37,123 nucleotides of DNA from Kiritimatiellia bacterium. GTDB taxonomy: Bacteria > Verrucomicrobiota > Kiritimatiellia > RFP12 > UBA1067. Shown here in pieces: positions 16,655 through 33,642 of the stretch. The first letter of the stretch is position 1; each line of letters opens with the position of its first letter. Under the pieces are notes generated by a model, which saw only the letters and a list, made by a program, of their open reading frames with translations, made no database searches and had not been told where the DNA came from. The stretch is from assembly GCA_017395505.1 (NCBI GenBank), contig JAFPUH010000023.1, forward strand, positions 1 through 37,123, written 5' to 3'. The position numbers and the translations under genes were made by a program.

Positions 16655-17077
16655 ATGGGAACTGAAGACAACAGGCAGCTAAGATGGATTTTTGCGATAG
16701 GCCTCAGCCTTGCGCTGCATGTGCTGTTGGTCGTGCTGATGGTCGGCATAGGCGGCGAGGATGCTCCTTCGCCAGTCGTGGCTCCCGCGAAGCCTGAGAA
16801 GGTCGAGCCGGATACTCCGAAGCCTACGTTCACGTCGCCTTCGGCCACGACGCTGACGCCGTCCGCGACTACGGCTGTAACGCCGTCCGCTCCGACGCAG
16901 CGCGAAGCGCCGGACTACAAGACTTATACCGTTAAATCTGGCGACAACCTCTCGAAGATCGCAAAGCTTGACGGCAGTACGCTCGCAGAGCTGGCCGAAC
17001 TCAACGGGACCGACATTAAGACGCTTTCGCGTCTTCAGCCGGGGCAGAAGATCAAGGTAAGGAATGGAATCGAATAG
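16655..17077 (+). CDS. LysM protein with TonB/TolA-like N-terminal anchor
   Basis: A 140-residue inner-membrane-anchored protein. A single helix (about 11-33) contains S18-x3-H22, the SxxxH pattern that TonB and TolA use to engage ExbB/ExbD or TolQ/TolR. A Pro/Lys/Glu then Thr/Ser/Pro-rich linker (about 40-85) precedes one LysM domain (YTVKSGDNLSKIA to LQPGQKIKV, about 91-137), which binds peptidoglycan N-acetylglucosamine. A GGTGAT site precedes the ATG. It overlaps the prepilin peptidase gene by 14 bases. It may simply be a LysM anchor; energy coupling is inferred from the helix motif only. Confidence 0.8.
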   Translation: MGTEDNRQLRWIFAIGLSLALHVLLVVLMVGIGGEDAPSPVVAPAKPEKVEPDTPKPTFTSPSATTLTPSATTAVTPSAPTQREAPDYKTYTVKSGDNLSKIAKLDGSTLAELAELNGTDIKTLSRLQPGQKIKVRNGIE

Positions 17078-30086: not shown

Positions 30087-31999
30087 CGCTTCTTTCGGCA
30101 GTTCTCTTCGCGGCGATAACTGTTGCGCCCGCCGATAGGCTGGCGATGGCCGACAGGCTGTTCAACCGCGGCGCTTATGCCGACGCGAGGTCCGAGTACG
30201 AGGCGCTCAAGGGCGAGAACGTCCTGCCCTACGACGATCTGCTCTACCGTCTGGCCGAGTGCGACAGGGCGATAGGCCGCAAGGCCGAGGCGCGTGCGTC
30301 GTACGGCGAACTGCTTGAGCGGTTTCCTGCGTCGCGCCATGCTGACCGCGCCCGCCTCATGTGCGCTCTTGCGGGGACCGATGACGAGAAGCGCAGCGAG
30401 CTGAGGGTTCTCGACTCCGACAGGGTTGCGGCCGACATAAGGTCTGCGGCGCTCTACCACCTTGGCGTCCTGAACAACGACGTCGATGCGTTCGAGCGGT
30501 GCGTGTCAGTCTCGCCAAAGGGGCGCTACGCCCCCTATGCGAAGCTCCGCCGTGCCTCGCTGCTGGCCGCTTCGCAGGATGCCGCCGAACGTCGCCAGGC
30601 CGTCCGTCTGCTTCTTGAAATCGCCTTCAGCAACAGCGGCGAGTTTTCCGAAGAGGCCCTATACCTCGCCTCGACAACCAGCTATGGCGAGAAGCGTTAT
30701 GGCGAGGCTTCTACGCTCTTCCGCCGTTACATGAAGTACTATCCGAAAGGCAGGCACATCCGCGAGGCGGTTTCGATCTGCGCATGGTGCGACTACCTGA
30801 CCGGCAAGTACGCCGACGCCATTTCGCTTTGCGGCAACGGCACTACCGAAGATACCGCCTTTTTGATGGCCGCCGCCACCCATGCTTCGGGCGACGCCCA
30901 CAAGGCGAAGCCGCTCTTCGAGGCGTACATTGAGAAGTATCCTCAGGGTCGCTATGTGAAGGACGCCGAGTTGCCTCTTTCCCGTCTTGGATTCGCCGAG
31001 GCCGAGAAGGCCGGCGATTCTTCCAAGGCGCTCGAGTTCGCCAAGCGCGCTGCTGCGATATCAAACTCCGCGTCCGACAGGCTGCGCGTCGCGTGGGCCT
31101 ACGAGAAGTGCGGCTCGCCAGAAGACGCCGAGAAGGAGTATATGGCGGTGGCTTCGGATTTTCCCGGCACCCCGGAAGCCGCCGAAGCAATGTTCAGGAA
31201 GGCGCTCGCCGATCTTCGCGAGGAGCGCTGGTCTGCGGCCGAGCTTTCGCTTGCTGAGGCGCTAGGCGGACAGCTTGATCCTCGCCGCCATGCCGAGGCG
31301 CTCTACTGGCGCGGCATAGCCGCCATACGCATGGGCCACGAGGAGGAGGGCGTCGCCCATCTCAGGACGGCCATCGAGAAGGGCCTCGCGCTAGACCAGT
31401 CTCGCGAAGCGCGGCTTCTCATAGCAGATTGCGACTACAATTCAGGCCGGAGCGACGAGGCCAAGAGCGCATATTCGCTTCTTGTGAAGGAGGGTGCCGC
31501 GGCTCGCATGAGCGCCGCCAAGACTCTCGCCGTCGGCAAGCTGCTTTTTCCTGGCGAAGAGGCCGAGATCTGCGCAAAGGCCCTGATAAAGAGCGACGCC
31601 CCCGAGTGGCGGCAGGCCGGCTATGCGCTTCAGGGGTCCGTCGAGGAGAATGCCAAGGCCTTCTCTGCCGCGATCGAGTCGTACAGGCGCTGCATGGCCG
31701 AGAACTGCAAGACCGAGGATCTGCCGAAGGTCGCGGCGAGGCTTGGCGCGCTCGAGGCCGCGAACGGCGAGTGGGATAACGCCGAGGCGACGCTCTCCCG
31801 CGCCGTCGAGCTCAACGCAGAAGACGTGATGGCCCGCGCCGAGAGCTATCTGCATCTTGCGGAGGTGTCGGTCGCCAAGGGCAACATAAAGAATGCCCGC
31901 GCCTATGCGACTGTCTTGACCACGCTTTTCGAAGGTACTCCCTTCGCCAAGGAGGCGGAGGAGATACTCAAGGCGCATCCTGAGAAGGAGGCCAAGTGA
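30083..31999 (+). CDS. Periplasmic tetratricopeptide-repeat protein (BamD/CpoB-like repeats)
   Basis: A 638-residue protein with an N-terminal signal-like segment (LLSAVLFAAITVAPA) followed by helical repeats throughout. Examples are ADRLFNRGAYADARSEYEAL, RLAECDRAIGRKAEARASYGELLERFP, EASTLFRRYMKYYPKGRHIREA and AYEKCGSPEDAEKEYMAVASDFPGTPEAAEAMFRKAL. The spacing and the FPxxxxA endings resemble the outer-membrane-lipoprotein class of TPRs. It probably scaffolds protein contacts of the ExbBD/VWA system, as CpoB (YbgF) does for Tol-Pal. The start is GTG, overlapping the exbD stop; the stop overlaps the next GTG. Confidence 0.87.
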   Translation: MTLLSAVLFAAITVAPADRLAMADRLFNRGAYADARSEYEALKGENVLPYDDLLYRLAECDRAIGRKAEARASYGELLERFPASRHADRARLMCALAGTDDEKRSELRVLDSDRVAADIRSAALYHLGVLNNDVDAFERCVSVSPKGRYAPYAKLRRASLLAASQDAAERRQAVRLLLEIAFSNSGEFSEEALYLASTTSYGEKRYGEASTLFRRYMKYYPKGRHIREAVSICAWCDYLTGKYADAISLCGNGTTEDTAFLMAAATHASGDAHKAKPLFEAYIEKYPQGRYVKDAELPLSRLGFAEAEKAGDSSKALEFAKRAAAISNSASDRLRVAWAYEKCGSPEDAEKEYMAVASDFPGTPEAAEAMFRKALADLREERWSAAELSLAEALGGQLDPRRHAEALYWRGIAAIRMGHEEEGVAHLRTAIEKGLALDQSREARLLIADCDYNSGRSDEAKSAYSLLVKEGAAARMSAAKTLAVGKLLFPGEEAEICAKALIKSDAPEWRQAGYALQGSVEENAKAFSAAIESYRRCMAENCKTEDLPKVAARLGALEAANGEWDNAEATLSRAVELNAEDVMARAESYLHLAEVSVAKGNIKNARAYATVLTTLFEGTPFAKEAEEILKAHPEKEAK

Positions 32000-33642
32000 A
32001 GGGCGGAGTAAAGACAGATCTGCTCATCGCAGCCCTGGTGGTGTCTGCCGCGGTTCACGTTGCGATCATGATCTGGGCCGAGCCTAAGGTAATGACCCAC
32101 GTTGCCCAGCGCATAACGCGTTCGGTTCGTCGCGGACCTATGGTCGCGAAGCGTGCGGAGGCGCCGGAGGATCCGATAAAGTTCGAGATAGTGCAGGATC
32201 TGCCGGCTCAGAAGGATGCTCCCGAGGTCGAGGATGATGTCGTCGCAGCGCCTGCCCCTGAGCTGCTTTCTCCTGTTCAGGCTGCCGCGTTGCCTGTACC
32301 GACGGCGATCGAGGCGCCGAAGATACTCGAGCGTCTTCGTCCCGAGGCTGATGCGCCGGTCATACCTGTGGCGTCCAAGGTTGTCGAGTCGGTGGAGAAT
32401 CCAGATGCTGTCGCCGGCATGCCCCTCGACATATATGTGCCGATAATTGAGATCATAGGCCGCTCCGCGCCAGCCGGAGCCCCGCCGGTCGAGATGGATT
32501 TCGAGGCCCCCGATATCGAAGTGCCTGAGATGGACGTGATCGACGAAGTCGTCGCCGAGCCCGATCCGCCCGAGAAGATGCTTGCGAATGATGACGAGAA
32601 GGGTGAGGACAAGCCTGACTACACGCCGCTCGAAGAGGTGATGGGCGAGGTTGATGAGGCCGTCGTGGCCCAGGAAAAGGCGGCTGTCCGCGAGCTTGTG
32701 GATTCCGAATCGGCCGTTGAGATGAGCGAGGCGGTGGATGTGGGGCTCAAGAGCTTCGTCGGAGACGACGGCTACACCTACTTCGAGGTGGTGCTTACCC
32801 CGAAGCCCGACTTGATGGCTGTTCCAAAGGATGTCGTAATCCTGCTCGATGCGTCTGGTTCGATAGGCGACGACCGTCTTTCAAGTTGCCGCAAGGCGGC
32901 CCGCGCGATAATGAGGAGCTGCATGAATACGGGCGACCGCTTCAACATAGTGGCCTTCCGCGACCGCTTCTCGTATGCCTTCCGCACCTGGCAGGAGTGC
33001 AACGCCGACAGCTTCAAGAAGGGCGACGCCTGGCTGGCCAAGCAGGTCGCCCACGGCAGGACCGACGTGTTTGCGACGATTTCGTCCGTACTTACGCTGC
33101 CGCGCGATCCGAAGCGTCCGCTGATCGCGCTTGTCGTCACCGACGGCGACGCCAACTCGGGCGTCAGGGGAACGGCCGACATACTTTCCAAGTTCTCTAA
33201 CCTCAACGACGGGCTCGTCTCCGTCTATATGTACGGCGTGAAGGCGAGCGCAAATCGCGAGCTCATAGACGTGCTTACGCGCGGCAACCGCGGCGAGGGC
33301 TTCATATTCGACGGCTGGCGCTGGAAGGCAGGTTCGGAGATCGAGAACCTCTCGAAGCGCTTCCGCGATCCGCTGGTCACAGATCTTCGCGTAGTCTTCC
33401 CGTCGAACTGCCAGGCTGAGGCGTATCCCTCGCTGCTCCGGAACGTCTATCGCGGCAACACCGTAAGCTTCCTGGGGCGAGTGGCCGGTCAGCCTGAAGA
33501 CATTGCGTTCTCGCTCAAGGGCCTGGCCGGTGAGACGGCCTATGAAGGGTTCTTCCGTCTGCCTCTTGCCGGGGCGACGCGTGACGAATCGGTTCCAGCC
33601 AGGTGGCTGAGCGAGCGCACGATAGATGCGAAGATACATTGA
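31996..33642 (+). CDS. TonB/TolA-like protein with a von Willebrand factor A domain
   Basis: A 548-residue protein with an unusual architecture. A short basic N-terminus precedes one helix (about 9-27) containing S17-x3-H21, the TonB/TolA motif for the ExbB/TolQ channel. Next is a long acidic and proline-rich linker (about 45-265). A VWA domain follows (about 278-450) with a complete MIDAS: D285-S287-S289 in DASGS, T356, and D383 in TDGD. A beta-rich tail of about 100 residues ends the protein. No TonB C-domain is present. The start is GTG overlapping the TPR gene's stop. Its place directly after exbB-exbD-TPR mirrors TolA in tol operons. The ligand is unknown. Confidence 0.87.
   Translation: MKGGVKTDLLIAALVVSAAVHVAIMIWAEPKVMTHVAQRITRSVRRGPMVAKRAEAPEDPIKFEIVQDLPAQKDAPEVEDDVVAAPAPELLSPVQAAALPVPTAIEAPKILERLRPEADAPVIPVASKVVESVENPDAVAGMPLDIYVPIIEIIGRSAPAGAPPVEMDFEAPDIEVPEMDVIDEVVAEPDPPEKMLANDDEKGEDKPDYTPLEEVMGEVDEAVVAQEKAAVRELVDSESAVEMSEAVDVGLKSFVGDDGYTYFEVVLTPKPDLMAVPKDVVILLDASGSIGDDRLSSCRKAARAIMRSCMNTGDRFNIVAFRDRFSYAFRTWQECNADSFKKGDAWLAKQVAHGRTDVFATISSVLTLPRDPKRPLIALVVTDGDANSGVRGTADILSKFSNLNDGLVSVYMYGVKASANRELIDVLTRGNRGEGFIFDGWRWKAGSEIENLSKRFRDPLVTDLRVVFPSNCQAEAYPSLLRNVYRGNTVSFLGRVAGQPEDIAFSLKGLAGETAYEGFFRLPLAGATRDESVPARWLSERTIDAKIH

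Follow-up and report, generated by a model that had tools for sequence, protein, structure and literature searches.

The Ton and Tol motors have been regarded as ending in a single type of β-strand-adding domain. A family of vWA force transducers has already been described, on computational grounds only, in 2025 (Mol Biol Evol, PMC12204202). Its members in the PVC group neighbor TPR and tolQ/tolR-like genes, AF3 models put the transducer helix on the motor, and the authors propose a gliding-like role by analogy with Myxococcus gliding (CglB). The complete S-H-L-S motif occurs in "many" members (PMC12204202), so it is not strictly defining.

The stretch analyzed here (the window; 37,123 nucleotides of a Kiritimatiellia genome) encodes a VWA protein of 548 residues, which is a new member of the vWA force transducers, matched by the described architecture and synteny. 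Because PMC12204202 already describes these transducers, the novelty is that of a new member. An earlier note on this DNA did not know the combination to be characterized; this holds to the extent that no experimental description of such a cluster was found in the literature searched, but as a predicted family the combination was published in 2025 (PMC12204202). The present analysis adds that the S/H and MIDAS residues are strictly conserved, that the tail is a probable hub, that there are unlinked arrangements in which the TPR gene still co-occurs, and that neither TonB receptors nor TolB are detected in the window's genome.

The features of the locus are collected in Table 1. Its four genes lie in the order exbB-exbD-TPR-VWA, and each overlaps the next (4 to 17 bases) in the manner of an operon with translational coupling. 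The earlier note had the VWA gene directly after exbB-exbD, which is wrong: the TPR gene intervenes. The repeats of the TPR protein match NCBIfam TIGR02795 (YbgF/CpoB; E 3e-31). The VWA gene begins with GTG, and its ribosome-binding site, AAGGAGG, was read from the sequence upstream.

Table 1. Features of the exbB-exbD-TPR-VWA locus (positions in the window)
Feature	Position	Strand	Basis or remark
exbB/tolQ-like motor subunit, 170 aa	29171..29683	+	Pfam MotA_ExbB E 9e-25
exbD/tolR-like motor subunit, 139 aa	29667..30086	+	Pfam ExbD E 2e-28; 17-base overlap with exbB
Periplasmic TPR protein, 638 aa	30083..31999	+	many TPR families; 4-base overlap with exbD
Ribosome-binding site AAGGAGG of VWA gene, within TPR gene end	31985..31991	+	read from sequence
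VWA energy transducer (very probable assignment), 548 aa	31996..33642	+	4-base overlap with TPR gene
Transmembrane helix; S17 = 32044-32046, H21 = 32056-32058	32017..32076	+	S/H invariant in 54/54 aligned
D-box / motor box IKFEIVQ, residues 61-67, flanked by P60 and P70	32176..32196	+	published ExbD-binding pattern
Acidic/proline-rich linker, residues 49-240	32140..32715	+	composition
VWA domain, residues 279-439	32830..33312	+	Pfam PF00092 E 8e-11
MIDAS motif D285-A-S287-G-S289	32848..32862	+	D, S, S invariant in 54/54
MIDAS T356	33061..33063	+	54/54
MIDAS D383	33142..33144	+	54/54
β-rich tail, residues ~459-543, probable inter-alpha-inhibitor-type hub	33370..33624	+	TIGR03788 259-538; 6FPY matches

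The VWA protein possesses one hydrophobic helix only, and this carries both S17 and H21. The linker that follows (~49-240, 192 residues) contains 47 acidic, 14 basic, and 26 Pro residues and is poorly conserved in the alignment of 32 relatives (A1). The VWA domain has a complete MIDAS of the form DxSxS...T...D (D285, S287, S289, T356, D383). The helix with S17xxxH21, the acidic/proline linker, the VWA domain with intact MIDAS, and the β-rich tail had all been proposed in the earlier note, and each is borne out: the first by its position in the sole hydrophobic helix, the second by composition, the third by the Pfam match and five invariant residues, and the last by a predicted model in which the tail is mostly β.

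The best NCBIfam match of the protein is TIGR03788 (VIT-VWA), which aligns with residues 259-538 at 66.6 bits against a cut-off of 551.65; the Pfam scan revealed no VIT domain. Compared with the PDB, the family profile finds the inter-alpha-inhibitor heavy chains (E 8e-25). Residues 245-548 were modeled from the window protein and one relative; the model is weak (pLDDT 61.6) and served for fold comparison only. Its top Foldseek match is 6FPY (E 2e-13, TM 0.61), and VIA-align gives Z 12.7 over 267 residues of the same structure. Many other VWA chains equal this Z, but across ~170 residues only. Taken together, these matches make the β-rich tail most likely the hub that accompanies the inter-alpha-inhibitor VWA subtype. 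The relation to YfbK named in PMC12204202 was dropped, as YfbK-type Pfam families were not among the matches of the 32 members.

A homologue of the VWA protein was found in 36/40 related genomes, and two of the four misses are explained by a contig end that cuts off the gene, exbB-exbD-TPR closing a short contig in each. A related-locus search of genome contigs returned one relative, and a plasmid search distant VWA matches only. Two alignments were examined: a first with 32 members from several families of the order, and a second with 54, in which the wider class and phylum were added. In the first set, no residue ahead of the VWA region is invariant except S17 and H21, and SxxxH is the sole invariant helix pair in both, at identities down to 21%. 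Together with the five MIDAS residues they are identical in all 54 aligned proteins, which rules out a chance SxxxH, and a pseudogene is likewise rejected, every match in the related genomes having a stop-free frame. When the hydrophobic segment was located independently in the wider class and phylum set it always included SxxxH. A divergent homologue from G081 (L124:6650-7820), outside the 54, retains the start of the MIDAS and has a helix without SxxxH. The conservation in orthologues that the earlier note had proposed as a check is therefore present in 54/54, with one further homologue lacking the motif. In the G081 protein, nature thus supplies a case on which the proposed motor contact could be tested. 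SxxxH is also absent from VIT-VWA relatives bearing a signal peptide. The SHLS motif is incomplete; its L and S positions are occupied by A28 and V32 here and vary among the 54.

Behind the helix a second motor-contact element can be recognized. The D-box through which TonB binds ExbD reads hydrophobic-polar-hydrophobic-polar-hydrophobic-hydrophobic-polar between prolines (PMC10907165), and residues 60-70 of the VWA protein, P-IKFEIVQ-DLP, fit this pattern. The strict pattern recurs at the same place in 13/32 members, where shuffled linkers lead one to expect 0.99 (~13-fold), and is degenerate in the majority of distant relatives. In the motor itself, alignment of the window's ExbB with E. coli ExbB (5SV0) shows the GT and TT proton-path threonines to be retained, and the helix Asp of ExbD (LDVIFLLL) aligns with the Asp of E. 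coli ExbD IDV. These threonines and this Asp are established as functional residues of the Ton system. Genus-wide, ExbB is missing ~50 residues from the cytoplasmic loop that joins helices 1 and 2, as well as the N-terminal extension; other families of the order possess both loop and extension.

From the SxxxH conservation, the D-box, the ExbB/ExbD operon with its proton-path residues, and the intact MIDAS, we conclude that the VWA protein is very probably a proton-driven, trans-periplasmic force transducer of the TonB/TolA-like type, belonging to the vWA class. This agrees with the energy-transducer reading of the earlier note; for the "adhesion domain" in that note the support stops at the VWA fold. 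As to docking, force, metal binding, and target, we infer the following scheme. The transducer helix would dock on the ExbB pentamer via S17/H21, and the periplasmic ExbD dimer would grip the D-box strand. The long linker would span the periplasm, allowing the VWA-hub to grasp a partner via the MIDAS metal, and proton flow via ExbBD would then pull the bound partner. The TPR protein would be part of the same machine, as an adaptor or as a partner that presents the ligand.

Other families of the order retain the four-gene order, and so does one further family elsewhere in the class (f14). Outside the order the transducer is usually unlinked and exbB-exbD-TPR are still together, as in five other class genomes that were inspected, where no transducer gene adjoins them. 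An unlinked transducer may lie, for example, downstream of rho; in one family (f3; L043, L046, L050) it directly follows secA, with exbB-exbD elsewhere and the TPR gene at a third site. The trio adjoins pgsA in three families, two of which also have ftsK nearby. Across 115 genomes of the phylum, the transducer and a full-length TPR gene were scored as present or absent: 26 have both, 3 the transducer only, 2 the TPR gene only, and 84 neither, such that the TPR gene accompanies the transducer in 26/29 genomes (G081 among the 26). Fisher's test gives p 3e-20 for the 115 genomes, although it ignores relatedness and the occurrences cluster by family. Within the class the counts are 23/0/1/13 (p 4e-9, relatedness uncorrected), and counted by family they are 9 against 6 (p 2e-4). 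As read from these genomes, the co-occurrence supports one joint ExbB-ExbD-TPR-VWA machine, including in genomes where its genes are scattered.

By analogy with Myxococcus gliding, the motor could pull a surface adhesin or glycans through the VWA domain in motility or adhesion, the role proposed in PMC12204202; adhesins with a VWA-MIDAS domain are common, and the hub shares its fold with the inter-alpha-inhibitor heavy chain. We consider this rather unlikely, since the VWA domain should sit in the periplasm on an inner-membrane tether, the neighborhoods inspected gave no recognized adhesin or gliding gene, and the gene is retained in nearly all genomes of the genus, some of whose assemblies are just 0.9-1.8 Mb. 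Less probable still is a scaffold that does not pull, in which the SxxxH helix does no more than anchor VWA and TPR proteins to ExbBD, where they would act in sensing or as a chaperone, as the VWA-TPR pairs of Bat-type operons may do. The strong VWA-TPR pairing and the incomplete SHLS motif would suit it; energization accounts better for an SxxxH that is invariant, for the D-box, and for the retained proton-path residues.

The window's genome (G000) is ~90% complete, and in it no Plug domain of a TonB-dependent receptor was detected. TolB_N is absent from 17 genomes, including this one. TolB was found in only 5/115 genomes of the phylum, and because of this rarity a test of mutual exclusion between transducer and TolB has no power. 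With neither a Plug receptor nor TolB, import is unlikely as the main role of the VWA transducer. That the protein substitutes for TonB and energizes outer-membrane receptors is accordingly the least probable alternative, a very doubtful one: its ExbBD operon and the Plug-domain receptors of several relatives would allow it, but G006 and G025, like the window's genome, keep the transducer with no detectable Plug domain, the protein lacks a TonB_C domain, and a separate TonB_2 gene adjoins another exbBD.

The window's genome has four ExbB genes yet zero detected Plug-domain genes, and one of the four is the neighbor of the TonB_2-domain gene. The three further exbBD clusters lie at L066:4786-8512, L067:4762-7933, and L068:5096-8734; one contains the TonB_2-domain protein, whose helix has AxxxH, not SxxxH, together with a BatD-like gene, another two exbD-like genes, and another a TPR gene. 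A single OmpA-domain protein, possibly of the Pal type, is encoded, unlinked, on contig C54. Within the window, the 140-aa product of positions 16655-17077 (+) joins a TonB-like helix (S18xxxH22) to a C-terminal LysM domain through a short proline/threonine linker; it is possibly a peptidoglycan-binding protein coupled to a motor, and SxxxH is kept in the G006 homologue.

For the force transducer we tentatively place a Tol-like role in maintenance or remodeling of the envelope ahead of receptor-driven import. This is the weakest step, to which we give somewhat less than an even chance, as its basis is confined to gene neighbors and to what is missing from a 90%-complete genome; it would fit the CpoB-like TPR repeats and the pgsA and ftsK neighbors. 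A more specific version, which we regard as speculative and on the whole unlikely, is that in the absence of TolB and, here, of TonB receptors, ExbBD-TPR-VWA pulls the outer membrane inward or holds it attached, a metal-dependent, integrin-like VWA grip replacing the β-strand addition of TolA and TonB. More generally, that a motor variant ending in a putative metal-dependent VWA grip is widely kept suggests an envelope role not described so far. Strict conservation extends to two residues for the motor and five for the metal site, and a TPR partner is co-inherited.

By comparison with the vWA force transducers of the Tichowtungia type, the window protein shares the S/H helix, the motor box, the disordered linker, the C-terminal VWA domain, and a position downstream of TPR and tolQ/tolR-like genes. 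It differs in having a single exbD rather than a pair, a linker of ~190 residues where theirs is ~100, and no retention of the L and S of SHLS; its tail is probably an inter-alpha-inhibitor-type hub, whereas PMC12204202 likens the fold to YfbK. With TonB-ExbBD and TolA-TolQR it has in common the motor, the SxxxH helix, the D-box, and the long linker, and presumably works in the same way. Those proteins end in TonB_C or TolA domain III, whereas here there is a VWA-hub, and no Pfam match to a TonB_C or TolA C-terminal domain was found in any of the 32 members; the Ton and Tol systems also have TonB receptors or TolB, neither of which was found in the window's genome. TIGR03788 VIT-VWA proteins and inter-alpha-inhibitor heavy chain H1 (6FPY) share the VWA domain and hub over ~270 residues; in place of VIT, signal peptide, and sortase sorting, the window protein has a motor helix and a linker. 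The second family of PMC12204202, TPH-vWA, likewise consists of membrane-tethered VWA proteins working with a TolQ-like pentamer, but these are without the S/H motif and replace ExbD, whereas the window protein has S/H and is accompanied by a separate exbD.
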